NCBI GenBank assembly: GCA_937957915.1
Contig: CALGNZ010000031.1
Location: 1 to 64,000 of the forward strand
DNA from: an uncultured Granulosicoccaceae bacterium
GTDB taxonomy: Bacteria > Pseudomonadota > Gammaproteobacteria > Granulosicoccales > Granulosicoccaceae
DNA length: 64,000 nucleotides
Direction of reading: 5' to 3'
The position numbers were made by a program, and so were the translations under genes. Under the pieces are notes generated by a model that saw only the letters and a program-made list of their open reading frames with translations, had not been told where the DNA came from and did not search any database. Shown here in pieces: positions 17,740-30,433 of the stretch; position 1 is the first letter of the stretch, and every line of letters starts with the position of its first letter.

Positions 17740-18082
17740 CTGCATTCGCTGGCTTATCTGCATTCGGCAAGAAGCCCGATACCGACTGCACCACGATTAC
17801 TCCACGGGTACAGCAGGTTGCTGCAACGAACGATTGGCGGCTGATAGCAACCATCCTGGTCAGTATTCCATTGACGTGATCCAGTTGGCTTGTGTAACCT
17901 GACACAACGCAGAACGCGGCTAAGCGTTTTTCCATGCACCGAATTGCCCGGCAATTGCTACAAGCTGCGGCGTAACAGCCGTATGAGTGCGGTTGCAACC
18001 ATTCAGGTGGTGCAAATTATTGCTTCAACCGGTTCGGGTCAGGTTCGTCCCGGTTGCGAATATCATAAACGGAGGAACATCT
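17740..18082. other. Intergenic region with short palindrome
   Basis: Spacer before the flotillin gene. Contains AATTGCC-C-GGCAATT (17942-17956), a near-perfect palindrome that may be an operator or hairpin. Open frames here (66-97 codons, minus strand) lack ribosome binding sites and recognisable character. Confidence 0.4.
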
Positions 18083-19699
18083 GTGTGGGTTTTCGCTAGT
18101 CTGATTGTGCTGGTAGTCGCAGTGGCGATCATCATTGCACTGCTAAATCGATTTTATCGCAAGGCAACGAGAGAGCGTGCGCTAATCAGAACAGGCGCAG
18201 GTGGCAAAAAGGTAGTGCTTGATGGCGGCTTTGTGTCTCTGCCATTTTTACATCGTGTTGAAGATATCAACATGAGAACCATGCGGCTCGAAGTAGATCG
18301 CAGCGGGGATAAGTCGTTAATGACTGAAGATCGTCTGCGAGTTGATACGACGATGGAGTTCTATTTGCGGGTAGACCCCACTGACGCGGGTGTGTCGACT
18401 GCAGCGCAGGCGATAGGTTCGCGCTCGCTGAACCCTGAAGACCTGCAGCATCTGTTCGAAGGTCGCTTTATCGACGCGATGCAAAACGTGGTGGCGCAAA
18501 CGACCATGGACGCATTGCACGAGAATCGTGCTGCATTTGTTGATTCTATCCAGGATAAATTAAAAGAGCGGCTTCACCAAAACGGCCTGATGCTGGAGTC
18601 TGCTTCCCTGACTCGGCTGGATCAGGCTTCCTTTTCATCGTTTGATGAAAACAACGCATTTAACGCTGTGGGTATGCGACGTCTTGCTGAAGTGATAGCC
18701 AGTAACCGCAAGCAACGCGCCGAAATAGAAGCCGACGCAGATGTTTCGGTGCGGCAGACTCAGCTGTCCGGAATCAAGCGCAGGCTGGAGATTGAACGTG
18801 AACAGCAGCAGGCCGAGATTGAACAGGGCCTGCATATTGAGCAGCTAAAGTCTGAGACCGAGGCGCAGCGGCAGCAGTCACGGCAATTGTCGGAGCAACT
18901 GGCAGAGCAGTCACGCATTCAGCGCGAACGTGAAATACGAGCCAGTGAGATCCAACGCGACAAAGAGCTGCGGCAAATGGAGGTTCAGGCACTGTTAGCA
19001 GCTGAATCTGCAAAGATCGACAGTCAAATCGCATTAACCCATAAACGGGCTGAAGAGATTTCAGCAAACTCTGCCGAGGAGCTGGCTCGCAAAGAGATTA
19101 TTGTGGCCCAGGAATCTGTGCAGCTCGAACGCGAAAGGCTGGCCGCTGAGCGAGAGTTGGAAATATCGAGTGTGCGCACACGCAGCGAAAATCAGACCAA
19201 AGAGCAGCGGGTTGCCAGTGAAGTCAAAACCATGCTTGAGAAAGTGCAGGCCGAGAGCAAAGCGGCTGAATTGCGCTCAGTTGCAATACGTAGTGAAAAG
19301 CAGGCAGAGGCGGACGGCAAAGTTGCTGTAATCAAGGCGGAAAACGAAATCAGTGATCGTGTTGTGCAAATGAAACTGCAGATGCACAAGATTGACAAGT
19401 TGCCCAAGTTAGCCCGGCAGATGATGAAGCCTGTCGAGAAGATAGATTCTATTCGTATAAACCAGGTATCCGGTCTTAACGTTGGCTCGGGTGGTGGCAA
19501 TGCGCCGGTCGGCCCAATCAACGGGGCTGTGGATGGTGTGTTAAACATGGCGTTGCAGCTTCCAGCGATGCAAAAGCTTGGACAGTCAATTGGTGTTAAT
19601 CTGGACTTAGGTGATCTGGATGGAGCCAGCAAAGACACGGGCGGGTCGCAGGCGGCGCAGCTAAATGTTCCAAAAGAGTCTGATGCAGATAGCAAATAG
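18083..19699 (+). CDS. Flotillin-like SPFH-domain membrane protein
   Basis: Protein of 538 residues from GTG at 18083, which sits seven bases after a perfect GGAGG; the frame begins at 17987 but those 32 residues lack membrane-protein character. One N-terminal transmembrane helix (ASLIVLVVAVAIIIALL) is followed by an SPFH domain (about 30-230) and a long charged coiled coil rich in Glu, Gln and Ala (about 235-430), then a Gly-rich tail. This is the flotillin/YqiK layout. Flotillins oligomerise and organise membrane microdomains. An NfeD partner, common beside flotillin genes, is not found here. Confidence 0.82.
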   Translation: MWVFASLIVLVVAVAIIIALLNRFYRKATRERALIRTGAGGKKVVLDGGFVSLPFLHRVEDINMRTMRLEVDRSGDKSLMTEDRLRVDTTMEFYLRVDPTDAGVSTAAQAIGSRSLNPEDLQHLFEGRFIDAMQNVVAQTTMDALHENRAAFVDSIQDKLKERLHQNGLMLESASLTRLDQASFSSFDENNAFNAVGMRRLAEVIASNRKQRAEIEADADVSVRQTQLSGIKRRLEIEREQQQAEIEQGLHIEQLKSETEAQRQQSRQLSEQLAEQSRIQREREIRASEIQRDKELRQMEVQALLAAESAKIDSQIALTHKRAEEISANSAEELARKEIIVAQESVQLERERLAAERELEISSVRTRSENQTKEQRVASEVKTMLEKVQAESKAAELRSVAIRSEKQAEADGKVAVIKAENEISDRVVQMKLQMHKIDKLPKLARQMMKPVEKIDSIRINQVSGLNVGSGGGNAPVGPINGAVDGVLNMALQLPAMQKLGQSIGVNLDLGDLDGASKDTGGSQAAQLNVPKESDADSK

Positions 19700-19770: not shown

Positions 19771-20991
19771 ATGAAACTTACCAGACGTAATCTGTTAAAG
19801 GGTGCCACCGCCTCTGCGGTTGGTATGGCACTCCCTCATGCATCGATGGCAGCGGATGCTATAAAAGTAGGCAGTATCATCGATACGTCGGGTATATTCG
19901 ATCTTTACGGCAAGCCGATGGATAAGGCAGTTACACTGGCGATTGAAGAAATCAACGCAGGTGGTGGCTTGCTTGGTCGTCAATTAGAGAAGGTGGCATA
20001 CGACACACAGTCAGACATGGCTTTGTATACACAGTACGCACAGAAGCTCTCTCGCAAAGACAAGGTTGATGTGGTGCACGGTGGCATATTGTCGGCGTCG
20101 CGAGAGGCGATACGCCCGACGTTGAGAAAAAGTAAAACGCTTTATTTCTACAATGTGCAATACGAAGGTGGAGTTTGCGACAGAAATATATTCTGTACCG
20201 GTATCACGCCGGCGCAGCAGGCCGAAGTTCTGGTGCCGGAGACCATGTCTCGCTGGGGCAAGAAAGTGTACGTCCTCGCCGCCGACTACAACTACGGTCA
20301 CATCACCGCCAAGTGGATTGAACACTACGCAAAGGAAAATGGCGGTGAAGTTGTACAGACTGACTTTTTCCCACTTGATGTCGCAGACTTTGGTGCAACC
20401 ATCGCAAAAATACAGGAAGCCGCACCGGACATGATTATGTCTGTGCTGGTGGGCGGTGCGCACTTGTCGTTCTATCGGCAGTGGGCAGCCGCAGGTATGA
20501 ACAAAAAAATACCAATGGCTTCAACCACGATGGGTGTGGGCAATGAGCAAGTAGTGCTGACCAAAGAAGAAGGTGACGGAATAATGCTGGTGTACAGTTA
20601 CTCGAAAGAGCTGGATACACCTGAGAACAAGGCATTTTTGGGCAAGTGGCAAGAGAGATTCGGTAATACGGATGATCTGCATGAACTTGCAGTTGCTACC
20701 TACCAGGGCATGCATCTGTGGGCTGAGGGTGTGCGTAAAGCTGACTCGATTGATCGTGAAAAAGTCATTGAAGCACTGGAGAGCGGTATTAGTTTTGATG
20801 CGCCAACCGGCAATATCTCTCTGGATGCGAAGACCCATCATGCTGTGACTTCAGTGCATCTGATCGAGGTGAAAGATCAGAAGATGAGCGTGGTGAAAAG
20901 TTTTGGTGAGAGGCAGCCGGTCGATACACAGACTGTTTGTGACCTTGAAGCCAACCCGGACGACAATCAACAGTACGAGATTTCAATCTAG
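19771..20991 (+). CDS. Urea/short-chain-amide type ABC substrate-binding protein
   Basis: Protein of 406 residues, first gene of an uptake operon. The start is supported by GGAGACAAC before ATG. A Tat signal (TRRNLLKG, then a mild hydrophobic stretch to ASMAAD) precedes a Peripla_BP fold: KVGSIIDTSGIFDLYG, then NVQYEGGVCDRNIFCTG with a Cys pair, and the PLDVADFGATIAKIQ segment of the UrtA/AmiC/FmdD group. It should bind urea or a small amide in the periplasm and deliver it to the permeases. The presence of an amidase in the same operon argues for an amide. Exact ligand is not readable. Confidence 0.85.
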   Translation: MKLTRRNLLKGATASAVGMALPHASMAADAIKVGSIIDTSGIFDLYGKPMDKAVTLAIEEINAGGGLLGRQLEKVAYDTQSDMALYTQYAQKLSRKDKVDVVHGGILSASREAIRPTLRKSKTLYFYNVQYEGGVCDRNIFCTGITPAQQAEVLVPETMSRWGKKVYVLAADYNYGHITAKWIEHYAKENGGEVVQTDFFPLDVADFGATIAKIQEAAPDMIMSVLVGGAHLSFYRQWAAAGMNKKIPMASTTMGVGNEQVVLTKEEGDGIMLVYSYSKELDTPENKAFLGKWQERFGNTDDLHELAVATYQGMHLWAEGVRKADSIDREKVIEALESGISFDAPTGNISLDAKTHHAVTSVHLIEVKDQKMSVVKSFGERQPVDTQTVCDLEANPDDNQQYEISI

Positions 20992-21369: not shown

Positions 21370-22236
21370 GTGGATTACGCCGCCGTAGTCGCCGTTGAGA
21401 TCTTCTATGCCGTGGCAGTACTGGTTCTGATTAGTGCCGGTCTCGCGGTAATATTTGGCATGATGCGGGTGATTAATCTGGCGCACGGAGAGTTTTTAAC
21501 GCTGGGTGGATACGCGGCTATCGTATCCAACAAGGCTGGCGTTAATATCTATGTGTCGATGCTGGTAATGGCACCACTGGCGGCAGCGCTGTTTGGATTT
21601 TTGGTGGAGCGTCTGATTATCCGTTGGCTTTACGGGCGGCTGATCAATACGATGCTGGCTACGTGGGGGTTGAGCCTTGCGATGATGGGCGGCTTTACGA
21701 TGATCTTTGGCAATACGACTACCGGTATTGCCACCCCTATTGCGGGTTTTACTTACGGTCGTTATCAGTTGTCGGGCTATAACCTGTTTGTTATTTTCAT
21801 GGCGATTGCGGTGGCTGTTGGTCTTTATCTGATGCTCAAGACCACACGAGCCGGGCTGATTGCTCGCGGTGCCATGCAGAATACCGAGATGACGTCAGCA
21901 TTCGGTTATAACCCTTCACGTGTTTATTTGATTACCTTTGTTGCCGGTTCTGCACTGGCCGGCCTGGCGGGGGGTGTGATGGCGCCGCTTGTTGGTCTAA
22001 ACCCCGCTTCGGGGGCTAACTATATCGCCAAATCGTTCATCACTGTGATTGCAGGTGGCGCCTCGATTGTGTCAGGGGCACTAACCAGTGCGGGTATCTT
22101 CGGTGTGATATCACAAACAGTGACTCTGTTATCAACCCCGGCGGTAGGCGAGATTGCATTGCTGGTTGTCGCCATTATTCTTCTTCGCTTATTACCCACT
22201 GGCATAACCGGCAAGTTTTTCAAGGGACGGATCTAG
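21370..22236 (+). CDS. ABC permease, LivH/UrtB type
   Basis: Protein of 288 residues starting with GTG; the ribosome binding site is weak. Eight or so hydrophobic segments and the branched-chain/urea permease hallmark VINLAHGEFLTLGGY near residues 36-50. The C-terminal part has AGLAGGVMAPL and VIAGGASIVSGAL, the EAA-like coupling region for the ATPases. It forms the transmembrane channel with the LivM/UrtC-type protein encoded immediately downstream (its TTG start follows the stop codon directly). Confidence 0.87.
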   Translation: MDYAAVVAVEIFYAVAVLVLISAGLAVIFGMMRVINLAHGEFLTLGGYAAIVSNKAGVNIYVSMLVMAPLAAALFGFLVERLIIRWLYGRLINTMLATWGLSLAMMGGFTMIFGNTTTGIATPIAGFTYGRYQLSGYNLFVIFMAIAVAVGLYLMLKTTRAGLIARGAMQNTEMTSAFGYNPSRVYLITFVAGSALAGLAGGVMAPLVGLNPASGANYIAKSFITVIAGGASIVSGALTSAGIFGVISQTVTLLSTPAVGEIALLVVAIILLRLLPTGITGKFFKGRI

Positions 22237-23406
22237 TTGTTTACGCGAGACATACTATGGCCGGCCGTTATTGGTCTGGTGCTGATGTTCCTGCTGCCGC
22301 TGGTCACTGATGCCTACACGTTAACGGTATTAACCGCCTACGCTATGCTGGCGTTGAGTCTCGGCTTTATCTGGGGGTTTGCCGGAATTCTTTGCTTTGG
22401 TCAGGCCGCGTTCTTTGGGTTGGGTGCCTATGCGTTTGCAATAGCGTCCATCAATATTGGCACGCCATGGCTGCCGTTTTTTATTGCGATTCTGGTTCCA
22501 GCCCTGTTTGCTGCGGTGTTTGGTGCGGTGCTGTTCTACGGCAGGCTCAGCGATGTGTACCTTGCCGTTGTGACCCTGGTAATGACGCTTATTCTGTTTA
22601 AATTTATGAACTCGTCAGCTGGTGACGGCTACAAGCTGGGGACAGCCCGCCTCGGTGGATACAATGGAATACCCGGGTTTGAGACGCTAACTGTGCCGTG
22701 GGATTCCAGTGAGTATCTCTATGACACCTCTCTCTATTACTTTGCTTTCCTGTTGTTGATAGTGGTTTATATCTGCTTGCGATTGCTATTGCGACAACCT
22801 TTTGGTCGGGCGTTGGTTGGTATCAGAGAAAACGAGCTGCGGGCCGAATTGATGGGATACGACATTCGATTGCTCAAGACAATAGCATTTTCAATTGGAG
22901 CCGCAATAGCCGGGCTGGCAGGTTGCATCTATGCCAACTGGGCAGAGATTGTCACGCCGGCGTTGTTCTCACTGGGGCAGTCGGCTGAAATTATTATCTG
23001 GGTGATTGTTGGCGGTGCCGGTACTTTAATGGGGCCGTTGATTGGTGCGGCCTTGTTGGGGTACACCAAGTTCCTGCTTGGTCAGCAGAGCCTTATAGAC
23101 AATACGTTTATTTTGGGCATGATCCTGGTGTTGGCGGTATTGCTGTTGCCGAACGGTATTTTCCCCGCAGTGGTGTCGATAGTAAAACGAGTCGCAGCAA
23201 AATTTTCTACCGGGCGCAGTCCACGCAGCCGGGCAGCGTCCAGACGCAGTAAGTTGCCGAACAAAACCGGCCATCAGGCGGATGGCAGTAATAGGCGGGG
23301 AAGCACGCAGAGTTCTGCGCAGAGCTCCGCCCAGAGTTCTGCGCAGGGCAAAAGTCATAACCATCGTGATGACGATGGTGCAGCGCCGATAGATCGGGGG
23401 CAATAG
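22237..23406 (+). CDS. ABC permease, LivM/UrtC type
   Basis: Protein of 389 residues; the frame starts at TTG directly after the previous stop, suggesting coupled translation. LivM-family marks: GILCFGQAAFFGLGAYAFA near 47-65, and the coupling-loop region GRALVGIRENELRAELMGYD. Around residue 320 the membrane part ends and a hydrophilic basic tail of about 70 residues follows (RSPRSRAASRR, then three SSAQ repeats, then HNHRDDDG), which is not part of the family. The tail is presumably cytoplasmic and disordered. Partner of the preceding permease. Confidence 0.87.
   Translation: MFTRDILWPAVIGLVLMFLLPLVTDAYTLTVLTAYAMLALSLGFIWGFAGILCFGQAAFFGLGAYAFAIASINIGTPWLPFFIAILVPALFAAVFGAVLFYGRLSDVYLAVVTLVMTLILFKFMNSSAGDGYKLGTARLGGYNGIPGFETLTVPWDSSEYLYDTSLYYFAFLLLIVVYICLRLLLRQPFGRALVGIRENELRAELMGYDIRLLKTIAFSIGAAIAGLAGCIYANWAEIVTPALFSLGQSAEIIIWVIVGGAGTLMGPLIGAALLGYTKFLLGQQSLIDNTFILGMILVLAVLLLPNGIFPAVVSIVKRVAAKFSTGRSPRSRAASRRSKLPNKTGHQADGSNRRGSTQSSAQSSAQSSAQGKSHNHRDDDGAAPIDRGQ
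23309..23346 (+). repeat. 12-base coding repeat (Ser-Ser-Ala-Gln)
   Basis: Three tandem near-copies of AGTTCTGCGCAG at the 3-prime end of the LivM/UrtC-type gene encode SSAQ repeated. A short, slippage-prone repeat in a non-essential tail. Confidence 0.6.
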
Positions 23407-23410
23407 CGTC

Positions 23411-24127
23411 GTGCGCAATGTCGAAGTAGAGGTTCGCGGGTTAACCATGCAGTTTGGCGGAGTGCGTGCGCTCGATCAGGTCAACTTTGCGTTGGCGCGG
23501 CGTGAACTGCGATGTTTGATTGGTCCGAACGGGGCTGGCAAGAGCACGTTTTTTAAATGCCTTGCGGGGTTGCTGGAACCTACCAGTGGCGAAATAATGA
23601 TACGAGGTGAAAACACAACCGGTTGGTTACCGCATCGAATAGCCCGGCTTGGTGTAGGTATAAAAACTCAGGTGCCCAGTGTCATGAATGGCCTTACGGT
23701 CAGAGAAAATATCTGGCTGGCCGCAAAGCGAAACAGTACAGTGGCCGAAGCTAACCGAATGGCATCGTCGATCGCTGCCCGGGTGTTGATCGATGATGTA
23801 TTGAATGAACAGGTAGAAACACTGGCGCACGGAAAACGCCAGCTGGTGGAGCTTGCAATAGTGCTTGCCGGCAGGCCCTGGCTGGTATTGCTTGATGAGC
23901 CGGCGGCCGGGCTGACGGCAATCGAGGTGGATCGCATGATTGACGTAATACGCGATATCAACACCGACGCGGCGCTGATCATAGTCGAGCACGATATGCA
24001 TTTTGTTCGGCGGATTGCTAAGCAGGTAACGGTGTTTCATCAGGGGCGCGTGCTGATTGATGAAGACGTTGATCAGGTGATGTCGAACCCTGATGTCCGT
24101 GATGTTTATCTGGGTAAGCAATTGTGA
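23411..24127 (+). CDS. ABC transporter ATPase, LivG/UrtD type
   Basis: Protein of 238 residues starting at GTG four bases after the permease stop. Walker [10 protein letters not shown] (about 38-46), Walker B WLVLLDEP followed by AAGL, and the D-loop/His switch [12 protein letters not shown] are intact. The signature region reads [12 protein letters not shown] rather than LSGGQ, as is usual for UrtD/LivG-type proteins. It pairs with the ATPase half of the next gene to power the transporter. Its stop overlaps the next start (GTGA). Confidence 0.87.
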
Positions 24128-26703
24128 TTGGGGCAGAAACTGAAGGCGTTGCGCAACCCGCAAACGCATTGCCTGATCTATTACTTACTGTAGATCGGCT
24201 GCACTCGGGTTACGGGCGTATACCGGTGTTGCAGGGCGTCACTTTTCAGGTGCAGGCCGGAGAGGTGGTGGGTTTGCTTGGCCATAATGGTATGGGTAAA
24301 ACCACACTGCTAAAAACTCTGATGGGTTATATCCCCGCAACACGGGGCGTTGTGTCTTACGATGGTAGAGACATCACACGGCTTGCCGCTCATGAACGCA
24401 GCAATCTTGGTATCTCCTATGTACCGCAGGGGCGCGGCATGTTTGCCGGGCTTACAGCGCGCGAGAACCTTGAGTTTGCATGGACGGGCGCCAACGGTCT
24501 TGATGTTGATACGGCGATAGATGGAATTTTGCAGGACTTGCCTCGACTGCAGGTGTTGCTCGATCGTCAGGCGGGTGCACTCAGTGGAGGCGAGCAACAA
24601 ATACTGGCGATAGCGCGAGGACTAATTAGCGAGCCTGACTTGTTGCTGCTTGATGAGCCGACGGAAGGGATCCAGCCTTCAATAATCGACGAGATAGCCA
24701 CAATGCTTTCCCGACTGCAAAAGGATCGAGGGCTTGCCATCGTCGTTGTAGAACAGAATCTGGAGTTTTTGATTGCGCTATCGGATCGGATGTTATTGCT
24801 GGAAAAAGGAGCGATCACCGGAAACCTTCAGGGTGAGCAAATGCGTGATGCAGCCTTGCTTGAGGAGTTCGCAGGTTTTGGCGGGGCAAGTACTGGAGGC
24901 GTCGGTAGTGAGGGCTCGCCGGCGAACAACCGCAGTGTGGCATCGTCGCGTGAGCACGGCGGCTCAGGTTTTGTCAGTAAAAACCGGAATGGATATGATG
25001 ACGCGCCGACTTCCGGTACACATGGACAAACATTTCCGCCTTCACCAACACAGCCAGGGCGGTCAAGTCAGGCTGGTACAACATTTATTGGCGCAGCGTC
25101 TAACGAGCACGGTATGTCATCCGGCGCTTATACTTCGTTATCTAAACAGCATGCATCACATTCTGATGCAGCGGGCCAGGAATCCTATATGACGATTCGC
25201 AGACCGACGATCGATCAAATGCGCAGCCTGGTTACGGGCTTGCATATGGACATGGCAGACGAAGAACTGTCGGCTTACATGGAGTTAATGGAAGGGACTT
25301 TTCAGGCGTACGATCGCGTTGATTCGCTGCCAGATAATCTGCCACCTGTACATTACCCGAGAACACCGGGTCGACGTCCCTCTCAAGCAGAAAACCCGCT
25401 TAATGCCTGGTATTACCAGTGCGAGGTTCGAGGTGCCGCAACCGGCCCGCTTGCCGGTAAGCATGTGGTACTTAAAGACAACGTTTGTCTGGCCGGCGTA
25501 CCGATGATGAACGGTGCATCGACACTCGAGGGGTACACGCCTGACGTTGATGCAACCATAGTCACCCGCATGCTTGATGCGGGTGCGACCATTGTTGGCA
25601 AAGCGCACTGCGAGTATTTTTGCCTGTCAGGTGGCAGCCATACCAACGCGACCGGACCGGTTCATAACCCGTATCGTATCGGCTATTCGGCAGGTGGTTC
25701 ATCCTCTGGCAGTGGTGCACTGGTCGGTTCCGGTGAAGTACCGATGGCTATCGGAGGTGATCAGGGTGGCTCTATTCGTATTCCGGCATCATTTTGTGGC
25801 TGCTACGGCATGAAACCCACACATGGGCTGGTACCGTATACCGGCGTAATGCCAATTGAACCTACCATCGATCACACTGGCCCGATAACAACGAATGTTG
25901 CTGATAACGCGCTGTTGCTGGAGGTTATCGCAGGAGAAGACGGACTTGATCCGCGGCAGTATTCGCCAAAGACAGACAGGTACACTGCCGCTTTGGGGCA
26001 GGGCGTGTCAGGCATGCGTATTGGTGTGGTTGCAGAGGGCTTTGGTCTGGAGAACAGTGAGGCGGACGTTGACCGCTGTGTAAGAGAAGCAGCAGAAAAA
26101 TATACTTCAATGGGGGCGACAGTAGAGCAGGTATCCATCCCTATGCATCTGGACGGTGCTGCAATCTGGACACCGATAGCGCTTGAAGGTTTAACCGATA
26201 CAATGATGCATGGCAACGGATTTGGTACGGGTTGGAAGGGGCTTTACGTCGGTAGTTTGCATGCGCATCACTCGAACTGGCGCTCACGTGCTAATGAGTT
26301 GTCCGGTAGTCTGAAGGTATCCATGTTTGCCGGTGAGTATATGCTGAAGCACTATCGCGGCCAGTACTATGCAAAAGCGCAAAACCTGAGTCGTGTGTTA
26401 AAAGCAGCTTATGATCAGGCATTGCAGCAATATGATTTGTTGTTGATGCCTACGTTGCCAATGAAGGCTACCCCGTTGCCACCGCCTGATGCACCGCTTG
26501 CGCTCATCGTGCAGCGTGCGTTTGAAATGGTTACGAACACAGCGCCGTTTGATGCAACCGGGCATCCGGCTATGAGTATACCCTGTGCATTAAGTGATGG
26601 ACTGCCCGTGGGCATGATGTTAATCGGCAAGCATTGGCAGGAATCTACAATCTATCGAGCGGCCTATGCGTTTGAGCAGTCGGTCGACTGGCAGAACGCG
26701 TGA
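24124..26703 (+). CDS. LivF/UrtE-type ATPase fused to amidase-signature amidase
   Basis: Single 859-residue frame. Residues 20-250 are a complete ABC ATPase: Walker [10 protein letters not shown] (53-61), signature LSGGEQQ (153-159), Walker B LLLLDEP (173-179). Residues about 255-355 are a Ser/Gly/Asn-rich linker. Residues 356-859 are a full amidase: catalytic Lys451 (VVLKDNV), cis-Ser526 in GGSSSGSG, nucleophile Ser550 in [11 protein letters not shown]. The N-terminus of the second part ([11 protein letters not shown]) looks like the natural start of nitrile-pathway type amidases, and its ATG (25189) has CAGGA eight bases upstream, so a free amidase may also be made. The fusion would place amide hydrolysis at the transporter's cytoplasmic face. 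No stop or frameshift interrupts the linker. Confidence 0.88.
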
Positions 26704-26786: not shown

Positions 26787-28586
26787 ATGAGCCGCCGCTT
26801 GTTTGATCAAGGCTTGCAGGATCTGAGTCAGCCTATTACCAGCCTGAACGGAAGCAGCGAATCTGCCACTGATGCTGCGTTACTGATGCCTCAGAACAAT
26901 CAGTCTTATGTTTGCGGTGATCGGTCAGAGCCACTGTGGCGAAAAACAGTCTGGCAAGTGTTGAAAGACACCGAGGCGCGTTGTGGCAGTCGCAATGCTG
27001 TAGTGTTTTGTCAATCAGGTATCCGCTGGTCGTGGTCCGAATTTTTACGCAAAGTCGATGAGTTTGCGGCTGGGTTGCTTGCGATTGGTCTTAAACCCGG
27101 AGATCGCCTGGCTATCTGGTCTCCCAATAGCCCGCAGTGGTTGATCACTCAGTTTGCCACTGCAAGAATTGGCGTGATCCTGGTTACGATAAACCCTGCT
27201 TATAAAAGCAGTGAACTCGAGTATGCGCTAAACAAGTCGGGTGCAATCGCACTTGTGCTGTCACCAGATTTTAAGAAACTAAATTACCTTTCTATACTGA
27301 GAGATCTGGCGCCTGAGCTTGCCAATAGCGAGCCAGGGAAGCTGCAGTCGCCAGTACTAAAGCACCTCAAAACAGTAATCGTGACGCGTGACGAGGCAGA
27401 GCCAGGTACGGCAGAGCCAGGGACGTATTCATTTGCTCAGGTGGCCGCCATAGCAGGGCCTGCCAGTCGCCAGCGACTCGATTCAGTAACGGATTCTCTT
27501 GACCCCGATGATCCCATTAACATCCAGTTTACCTCTGGCACAACGGGCAGCCCAAAAGGGGCAACACTGACCCACTACAATATTGTGAATAATGGTCGAT
27601 TTACTGTCTCGAGATTACATCTGACACAGCGCGATACTCTGTGTATTCCGGTACCGCTCTATCATTGTTTTGGCATGGTTCTGGGCACACTGGGCTGCGT
27701 TAGTGTGGGTGCCTGTATGGTGTTCCCTGATGAGGGTTTTGACGCGGCGACCACGCTGGCAGCGTTAACCGCCGAGCGATGCACGGCATTGTATGGAGTG
27801 CCGACAATGTTTGTTGCCATGCTTGAATCAAAACAATTTGATGCGTCCGCACTTAGCACGCTGCGCACTGGCATCATGGCAGGAGCGCCTTGCCCTGAAG
27901 AGGTAATGAAGATGGTGATGACTCAGATGCATATGAGTGAAGTTACCATCGCCTATGGCATGACCGAGACCAGCCCGGTGTCTATGCAAAACCATATCGA
28001 CGATCCGTTGATCAAGCGCGTAGCGACGGTCGGTCGTATCCATCCTCACACGGAAGTGAAAATTGTCGATGTGTCGGGCAGGGTGACGCCCGTGGGTCAA
28101 TCGGGCGAGTTATGTACTCGCGGTTATCTGGTGATGCAGGGATACTGGAACGATGCATCACGCACCGATCAATCCATCGATGCGGCAGGATGGATGCACA
28201 GTGGGGATCTTGCGGTAATTGATGCCGAGGGTTATTGCGCTATTGTAGGTCGTGTTAAAGATATGCTTATCCGGGGTGGCGAGAATATCTATCCTCGAGA
28301 GATAGAAGAGCTGTTGTTTCAACACCCGAAGATTCAACAGGCACAGGTTTTTGGAGTTCCTGATAAGAGGTTGGGTGAAAGGGTTTGCGCATGGGTGGTG
28401 CTGCAGGTCGGTGAAACCATGACAGAAACGGATTTGCAGGAGTACTGCCGCGAACGAATGGCTATTTTTAAAGTGCCCGAGTACGTGCGATTTAAAGATG
28501 AGTTACCAATGACTGCGACTGGTAAGCCGCAAAAATTTGTAATGCGCGACCGTATGATTGCAGAGCTGGATGCGGCGTCCCGTTAA
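26787..28586 (+). CDS. AMP-forming acyl-CoA synthetase
   Basis: Protein of 599 residues, member of the ANL superfamily. AMP-binding P-loop [11 protein letters not shown] (about 252-262), GMTETSP, the hinge/adenylate motif [17 protein letters not shown] and the C-terminal catalytic Lys in TATGKPQKF are all present. Sequence style is that of FadD-like medium/long-chain fatty acyl-CoA synthetases. It starts 83 bases after the amidase stop in the same direction, so co-transcription is possible; an acid released by the amidase could be activated by it, which is speculation. Cytoplasmic or membrane-associated. Confidence 0.85.
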
Positions 28587-28675: not shown

Positions 28676-30433
28676 TTAGAAGAACGACGAAAAGGAATTG
28701 ATATCGGACACACTGGATAACGGAATATCCAGGATATACAGGTATTCGACGGTATCGGAGAAATCAATTTTGGCGCTGAAATCATCGAGGGCGCTATTCC
28801 ATGCGGCCGCTTTACTGTTGCCATTGCGAGCCCATTGGGCAAAGCTGCTGGTGGTCGTGTTGGTGTTGCTGTCTTCCAGATTGGCCGTAGCATTACCACC
28901 GACATTACCATTGTCAATGGTGACGTAGGTTGCCAGATTACTTACGGTTGCTCTGTTAGGCGGGGTTGTATTGGTAACATTGAAACCCAGAGAGTGCTGC
29001 ACAACCATAACCCGTTTCAACTGCTCAGATGTAGCGCCGTGAAACGACTGTAGTCGTTTGAGTACATCAGCAGTGAAGTCCATCGGCCCGCCATCGGCGA
29101 CTGACACGGTGTAACCGTTTTGCAGAGAATTCCAGAATTTGACTGCTTGTGCGTTAACTGCTTCAACCCATCCATCGCCAGTATCCAGATACGCGCCTGC
29201 GCCGTAGGCCGCATCTGCTACCTGTCTGCCTTTTTGACGACGCGATTCACCATTGTAATTACCCTGACCAAACATGTTGGTGCCAGATGTATAGAGAAAA
29301 TCAAGCGCTTCCGGGTTGCGTCCTCCGTGAGAAAATTGACCAGAAACCCCGTAGGCACCAATCACGACGGCTGGCGATATACCGAACTTGTCAGACAGAT
29401 TGGCGCCGGCTGCTATTGCCTGTAAGTCATCCAGATCGGGAGCAATGTCATAGTGCAGTGCGACCAGGTCAGTGGCTTGTGTAGTTTGTTCTGCTTGTAG
29501 AATAGTGCTGTAGCGGTAATCGATGTAGCGCCAGGACGCGTTGTTTTGGCGGTAAAAAAGTCGAACAAACAGAGTGGATGAATCAATTGGCAGAGAGGTA
29601 ACCGTTGCAGACGTTGCAGAACCCAGATGACCGCTGTTATACAGATCATCATTGCCCTCACTCGAGCCTGCATAGAGCCACCATTCGTTAATGCCCGCAC
29701 CCTGCCATGTGAAGGTTTGCGTTGCATTTGAGATTGAAGCGCCGGGGGCTGGTGACAACAGCTTGATTGCATTGTCTCCTGTATGAGCTGTGAGTGTAAA
29801 TTCGCGATGCCGCCATGCCGCTCCCGTTTGGCGATAGAAAAGTCGAATGTAAATGGTACGGCCGTCATGAGGTAATGCCGATATCGTTGTTGAGGTGACT
29901 GAACCCAGGTTGCCGCTGTTATAGATATCGTTGCTGCCCGTGCTGGACCCCAGGTATAGCCACCACTCGTCAATACCGTTACCGTGCCAGGTGAAAGTTT
30001 GCTGTGTGCCCGTCATGGTACTGCCTGCGCCGGGTGAAAGCAGGTCAATTGCGTTTGTGCCCGTGTGGGCCTGAAAAGTATAGTCGCGATGGCTCCATGT
30101 CTGGTTGGCGCCCCGGTAGAACAGACGCAGAAAAATGGTACGTCCGTCGTTTGGGAGGGCAGAGATATCGGCGCTGGTTGACTGTCCCAGGCTTCCGCTA
30201 TTGTGGATATCATTGGCACCTGCCGAAGTACCGAGATACAGCCAGGACTCACCCGTGTTTTCCAGCTGCCAGGAAAAGGTTTGAGTGGTAGAAGTAAGGG
30301 TGGATCCCTGCTGCGGGATTGCGAGCTCAAAGCCGTCTGCTGCTTTGGCAGTTTGCCAGGCTACAAGCGGTAGCAGAAGAAAAAGAAGTTGAAAGACAAA
30401 ATGCCTTCGCAGTTTATTGTTTCTAGCTGCCAT
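28676..30433 (-). CDS. Exported protein with three ~90-residue repeats and a C-terminal domain of unknown function
   Basis: Protein of 585 residues with a signal peptide (FVFQLLFLLLPLVAWQTAKAAD). Three modules follow, at about 36-125, 129-218 and 223-310, each with QTFxW, a WLYxGSSxGxNDIYNSG segment, LPxDGRTxxxRLFYR and a final W-x-x-x-x-Y/F; this is an Ig-like module seen in secreted proteobacterial proteins. Residues about 320-585 form another domain starting LHYDIAPDLDDLQAI, with an aspartate cluster faintly like nucleoside hydrolases (DxDPGxDD), then GQFSHGGRNPE. I do not recognise its family with confidence. Probably extracellular; a substrate-binding or hydrolytic role is inference. Convergent with the acyl-CoA synthetase gene. 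Confidence 0.75.
   Translation of the reverse strand: MAARNNKLRRHFVFQLLFLLLPLVAWQTAKAADGFELAIPQQGSTLTSTTQTFSWQLENTGESWLYLGTSAGANDIHNSGSLGQSTSADISALPNDGRTIFLRLFYRGANQTWSHRDYTFQAHTGTNAIDLLSPGAGSTMTGTQQTFTWHGNGIDEWWLYLGSSTGSNDIYNSGNLGSVTSTTISALPHDGRTIYIRLFYRQTGAAWRHREFTLTAHTGDNAIKLLSPAPGASISNATQTFTWQGAGINEWWLYAGSSEGNDDLYNSGHLGSATSATVTSLPIDSSTLFVRLFYRQNNASWRYIDYRYSTILQAEQTTQATDLVALHYDIAPDLDDLQAIAAGANLSDKFGISPAVVIGAYGVSGQFSHGGRNPEALDFLYTSGTNMFGQGNYNGESRRQKGRQVADAAYGAGAYLDTGDGWVEAVNAQAVKFWNSLQNGYTVSVADGGPMDFTADVLKRLQSFHGATSEQLKRVMVVQHSLGFNVTNTTPPNRATVSNLATYVTIDNGNVGGNATANLEDSNTNTTTSSFAQWARNGNSKAAAWNSALDDFSAKIDFSDTVEYLYILDIPLSSVSDINSFSSFF

Follow-up and report, generated by a model that had tools for sequence, protein, structure and literature searches.

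An importer ATPase joined in frame to an amidase marks a distinct amide-type uptake operon with linked flotillin and acyl-CoA ligase genes

The DNA analysed here is a stretch of 64,000 nucleotides (hereafter, the window) from an uncultured Granulosicoccaceae bacterium (contig CALGNZ010000031.1, assembly GCA_937957915.1). It contains a gene module in the order flotillin, urtA-B-C-D, urtE::amidase and acyl-CoA ligase, with the following features.

17987..19699, + strand: flotillin/SPFH protein, first gene of the module, start codon uncertain (Pfam Flot and Band_7)
19771..20991, + strand: UrtA/AmiC-type substrate-binding protein (Peripla_BP_6/5; urea substrate-binding protein models matched below cut-off)
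21370..22236, + strand: UrtB-type permease (domain models; urea models below cut-off)
22237..23406, + strand: UrtC-type permease with a polar C-terminal tail, which is strongly basic in fused loci (domain models)
23411..24127, + strand: UrtD-type ATPase, the presumed partner of the fused UrtE (domain models; below cut-off)
24124..26703, + strand: urtE::amidase fusion gene of 859 codons (stop-free frame; Pfam and NCBIfam; homologous fusions)
24124..24879, + strand: UrtE/LivF-type ATPase part, residues 1–252 (Pfam; pLDDT of at least 85 in every ten-residue block over 21–240)
24880..25188, + strand: disordered linker, residues 253–355 (pLDDT <50 at 252–355)
25178..25182, + strand: Shine-Dalgarno-like AGGAA, 6 bases 5' of the internal ATG (25189–25191)
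25189..26703, + strand: amidase-signature enzyme part, residues 356–859 (the PRK07235 model begins here; Met in 52/52 fusions)
26787..28586, + strand: acyl-CoA ligase (AMP-binding enzyme) of the same module (Pfam)

The five-gene uptake set is complete in the window, with one substrate-binding protein, two permeases and two ATPases, and thus the urea/amide-type operon setting given in the original prediction was borne out, while the flotillin and acyl-CoA ligase genes linked to it had been overlooked there. Urea as the cargo was not supported by the family models, as none of the five transporter proteins (UrtA–E) reached the urea equivalog cut-offs. The solved relatives of the UrtA-type protein include both urea-binding proteins and AmiC. 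On the reverse strand, positions 28676–30433 encode a 585-residue protein for which inspection by eye suggested a signal-peptide-like N-terminus and three ~95-residue repeats, and which had no Pfam match at E 0.001.

The GTG start of the urtE::amidase gene overlaps the stop of urtD. A complete ATPase, a linker of ~100 residues and a complete amidase had been predicted to share one 859-codon frame, and this was confirmed by Pfam, NCBIfam and the open frame itself. Pfam placed ABC_tran at residues 36–180 and Amidase at residues 437–843. The UrtE model of NCBIfam (TIGR03410) matched residues 21–245 with 248.4 bits, below its cut-off of 285.8, and the fused ATPase is related to, but not filed as, this urea UrtE. 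The amidase model PRK07235 (NF005565) matched residues 356–858 over its positions 1–505 of 506, with 814 bits against a cut-off of 545. Because position 1 of this model falls on residue 356, its start coincides exactly with the internal ATG at 25189. In the 39 aligned fusions, the ATPase residues K59, Q102, S154-G155-G156, D177 and E178, which we take to be the Walker A, Q-loop, signature and Walker B residues, were invariant. The Lys-Ser-Ser triad K451, S526 and S550, rightly read from the window as being in place, was invariant in the same alignment, and the amidase domain therefore looks like an enzyme. The closest solved amidase was the Rhodococcus-type enzyme 3A1K/3A1I, and no solved structure spanning both the ATPase and the amidase was found among 60 of the 160 matched chains. 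It was also observed that the fused ATPase carries VEQN at residues 209–212 (24748–24759), with Q211 invariant in the 39 fusions, at the position occupied in most ABC ATPases by the switch His; the partner UrtD reads VEHD.

An AlphaFold2 model built from the 39 fused sequences was confident in the ATPase, fell below pLDDT 50 over residues 252–355 (about 30–37 per ten-residue block over 251–350) and climbed sharply past residue 356. With an overall pTM of 0.50 and some amidase regions of low model quality, this model is not informative on how the two domains are placed relative to each other. The linker of the window copy (103 residues) contains 19% Ser, 17% Gly, 11% Ala and 5% Asn; its description as rich in Ser, Gly and Asn thus holds for Ser and Gly, while Asn is not notably abundant. 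When the linkers of 52 fusions were pooled, Ala, Pro, Ser and Thr were enriched. The stretch between residue positions 252 and 361, which takes in the first few amidase residues, was 37–129 residues long, with a median of 66. None of the 3394 linker codons of these 52 fusions is an in-frame stop, whereas the two alternative frames contain 53 and 71 stops, which excludes a chance open reading.

Homologues with the same two-domain layout were searched in the window's own family, in a class-wide sample and in named genomes. The fusion was present in 5 of 48 family genomes. Four of these copies are full length, namely that of the window and three others with 74, 59 and 57% identity; the fifth is truncated where its contig ends, a few residues into the amidase. 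In the class-wide sample of 274 genomes, the window's fusion was the only one at E 1e-90; four further genomes gave matches, to the amidase alone, and the distribution of the fusion is patchy. One of the amidase-only loci (L022) carries a urtABCDE-like set, a gene that looks FmdA-like by eye and a separate amidase. Named genomes were scanned with an amidase alignment and the best 80 of at least 489 confirmed relatives were taken. A locus was called fused when the tblastn match to UrtE and the amidase shared one open frame without an intervening stop, which gave 48 fused and 31 unfused loci and one (L030) undecidable at a contig edge. The fused calls include four loci at contig edges, of which L054 and L069 begin within UrtE and L053 and L082 break off within the amidase; for L082, the match to UrtE is split over two frames. 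By recorded lineage, the 48 fused loci belong to Alphaproteobacteria (34), Betaproteobacteria (8), Gammaproteobacteria (4), SAR324 (1) and Chloroflexota (1), and 40 of them are metagenome bins by title. A complete plasmid sequence of Sulfitobacter alexandrii encodes a 793-residue in-frame fusion (WP_071974000.1) in the same operon; this protein, the sole annotated copy inspected closely, is labelled merely "amidase". Thus, the frame that might have proved broken on resequencing is unbroken in other assemblies and on a complete plasmid sequence, with neither stop nor frameshift in the linker, and the fused form is shared by relatives of the window's genome.

The fusion is the marker of a distinct operon. 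Gene presence around the named loci was counted by tblastn because antisense frames in the GC-rich loci confounded a clustering of the longest open reading frames. Among the loci with enough flank, a flotillin gene was found upstream of urtA in 34/35 fused and 0/26 unfused loci, and an acyl-CoA ligase gene directly downstream in 38/39 fused and 0/25 unfused loci. L043 is the single fused exception for both genes. L030 was dropped from this comparison because its contig stops just before the amidase, and its inclusion as unfused would make the ligase count 1/26. For the UrtC C-terminal tail, whose start was placed approximately by alignment, the median net charge was +9 among fused loci (n = 42) and +2 among unfused loci (n = 22). 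A pairing of this basic tail with an acidic flotillin tail was considered and not supported, the flotillin tail charge having a median of 0 (34 loci). No second urtE copy appeared inside the fused operons in the tblastn listing. The importer could therefore be built only with the amidase attached, unless another LivF-type ATPase substitutes; the genome of the window holds LivF-type paralogues with at most 39% identity over the domain. Five fused loci of Burkholderiales (L037–L039, L041 and L050) have a second, distant amidase (28–33% identity) about 2 kb past the ligase start, and three loci share a further gene family, whose member in L037 is thiolase-like.

A urtE-like gene (at least 40% identity) lies beside 21 of the 31 unfused amidases, and in four of these the amidase precedes urtA; in the Burkholderiales loci L086, L093, L104 and L106, the order is reversed, with a free amidase followed by urtABCDE. 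AmiC-like and AmiR-like genes occur in six and five unfused loci, respectively, the clusters being named from one member each. The unfused locus L107, on plasmid pTM2 of Tistrella mobilis, has the nitrile hydratase genes nthB/nthA ~7 kb away, hinting at use of nitriles through amides to acids in that neighbourhood.

One branch of the amidase tree, with a support of 98, contained all 52 fusions together with three unfused and one undecidable row. The fused or unfused label required 3–4 changes on this tree against a shuffled mean near 29, and 2 changes on the UrtE tree for its 50 fused rows; both are quick trees with long outgroup branches and some low inner supports. Three unfused amidases that fall within the fused branch (L048, L072 and L080, the first placed with a support of only 82) have strong ribosome sites and are possible reversions to the free enzyme. 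Within the window's family, the window and G019 stand apart from G011 and G035 in the amidase tree, and the two fused-gene subtypes of this one family (L010 and L011 versus the window and L009) occupy different parts of it, suggesting separate horizontal gains. The trees fit a history in which one old fusion would have been followed by a few losses and by horizontal spread.

The Met that starts the ancestral amidase is kept in all 52 fusions, while the neighbouring residues vary, and it is also present in the cut-off family copy (L012) outside this set. The pairing energy with the anti-Shine-Dalgarno (SD) sequence before the internal ATG had a mean of −6.3 kcal/mol in the 52 fusions as compared with −1.66 at other linker codons. 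An energy of −4 was reached at 41/52 internal starts, 14/65 other linker ATGs and 388/1582 other in-frame ATGs; in the remaining 11 of the 52 fusions it was weaker. SD strength alone was insufficient as proof of an internal start, as comparably strong SD-like stretches precede the conserved Mets 541 and 694. A synonymous-codon test was therefore added, in which the encoded peptides were fixed and codons were sampled according to the usage of the respective gene. For the internal start, the expected energy was −3.80 and the observed mean percentile was 0.18 (0.235 in a variant counting ties fully), with values below 0.5 in 46/52 rows, which are related and so do not count as independent events. 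The controls, namely every other Met column with conservation in at least 40 rows (16 columns), showed no SD preference (mean percentiles 0.46–0.69), and a subset of 12 gave the same outcome; the SD-like stretches at Mets 541 and 694 are explained by the encoded peptide. At the internal start, the five-residue peptides upstream took 44 different forms among the 52 fusions. Since the SD is favoured by the codons while the peptide varies, selection appears to keep a ribosome site at the DNA level, and as the linker frame is kept as well, both the long and the short product appear to be maintained. In the window copy, the SD is moderate (−4.6 kcal/mol, rank 0.26 within its own linker) and the codon choice does not favour it (−5.7 expected, percentile 0.69). 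A conserved start with a selected ribosome site was thus found over the family and not in the window copy alone, so that the start predicted at 25189 is strongly supported as a family trait and draws no separate backing from codon choice in the gene where it was first noticed. Judged on the family, one gene probably makes both tethered and free amidase.

From these sequence-based observations on the conserved fusion, the genes linked to it, the Met kept at the internal start and the family-wide codon selection for its ribosome site, we infer that the locus is probably a module for amide uptake and use with an importer-tethered amidase, trapping of the acid as acyl-CoA and two products from the fusion gene. 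In this module, UrtA would capture an amide outside the cell, and UrtB, UrtC and UrtD with the fused UrtE would carry it inward. The amidase, held to UrtE by the flexible linker, would cut the amide at the inner face of the importer into ammonia and a carboxylic acid, and the co-encoded acyl-CoA ligase would lock the acid in as acyl-CoA. The flotillin may keep the complex in a membrane patch. The fusion gene would yield the full-length ATPase-amidase and, through the internal start, a free amidase, which could associate with the tethered copy or raise the capacity; related amidases form dimers. The arrangement suggests that uptake and digestion may be physically coupled. For the metabolic channelling initially proposed, a disordered tether is no proof, as it provides proximity and not a channel. 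A more elaborate form can be put forward tentatively, in which a horizontally spread transport metabolon would have its enzyme covalently on the motor, a free enzyme from the internal start, its own flotillin and basic UrtC tail for organisation and a pull by acyl-CoA formation.

The fusion could instead be incidental, arising from a lost stop codon between adjacent genes, with the working amidase mainly the free product of the internal start and the tether without a role. Where an unfused amidase follows a urtE-like gene, 17–154 bases separate its start from the stop of that gene in 16 of 19 loci, and the internal Met and SD are retained while the linker drifts freely in length and sequence. 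Yet the linkers stay stop-free in this one frame, the fused rows form nearly one branch across Alpha-, Beta- and Gammaproteobacteria and the linkage to flotillin and acyl-CoA ligase is near-perfect, so we regard this explanation as unlikely. Still less likely in our judgement is that the amidase domain serves as a regulatory tail that senses the amide or its product and gates transport, as in ABC ATPases regulated through their C-termini. The C-terminal position of the amidase on the ATPase agrees with such a tail, and a second binding-protein gene upstream (17/34 fused loci with enough flank) and the MarR-type genes present in the loci inspected point to control, but the invariant catalytic triad and the disordered, variable linker speak against it.

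An artefact of assembly or sequencing, or a lost frameshift, might be suspected as the window comes from an unfinished genome of 201 contigs with ~89% completeness and the named fused records are mostly metagenome bins. As independent assemblies and the Sulfitobacter plasmid hold the same in-frame fusion and the linkers are free of stops, artefact, frameshift and chance open frame are ruled out for the family, and we give this explanation hardly any credence. The tethered amide uptake-and-use module is the reading that we prefer.

MalK and MetN are ABC ATPases with C-terminal regulatory domains and resemble the fused ATPase in having an extra C-terminal domain on an importer ATPase, which here is a complete catabolic enzyme. 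In vectorial acylation (FadL/FadD), the conversion to acyl-CoA pulls uptake; the proposed module would share this pull and differ in its ABC-driven import and in having an amidase before the ligase. The PRK07235/Rhodococcus-type amidases (3A1I and 3A1K) are matched over their full length by the fused amidase, with the catalytic triad kept, but they are free enzymes of about 506–521 residues, whereas the fused amidase has an ABC ATPase in front. Separate hydrolase genes, for an aliphatic amidase or acetamidase/formamidase, adjoin urea-type ABC operons, and amide transport has been suggested for these in two papers (PMC3098086, PMC13209695). Such UrtABCDE operons have the same five transporter genes with an adjoining amide hydrolase as found here, but in the present module UrtE and the amidase form one protein, accompanied by linked genes for flotillin and acyl-CoA ligase. 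Long and short products of one frame by means of an internal start are described in reports on Cas11b (PMC11899642) and on phage endolysins, whose short isoform comes from an internal in-frame start (PMC12203907). In contrast to these genes, the predicted short form here would be a whole enzyme and the long form would carry the transporter part. No paper on a urtE::amidase fusion was found among the top-ranked open-licence PMC matches. The present amide uptake operon differs from the known operons with adjoining amidases in that an importer ATPase and the enzyme are one polypeptide.

The direct handover of cargo from importer to enzyme is an old question and has usually been approached through weak and transient complexes. 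In the module described here, the tether is covalent, long kept and widespread, which makes coupling accessible to experiment through a severed or shortened linker. The internal start would offer a simple genetic means of fixing the ratio of tethered to free enzyme. To our knowledge, the clients of the bacterial flotillin scaffold are mostly unclear, and the strict linkage of flotillin to one transporter offers a concrete candidate client for it.
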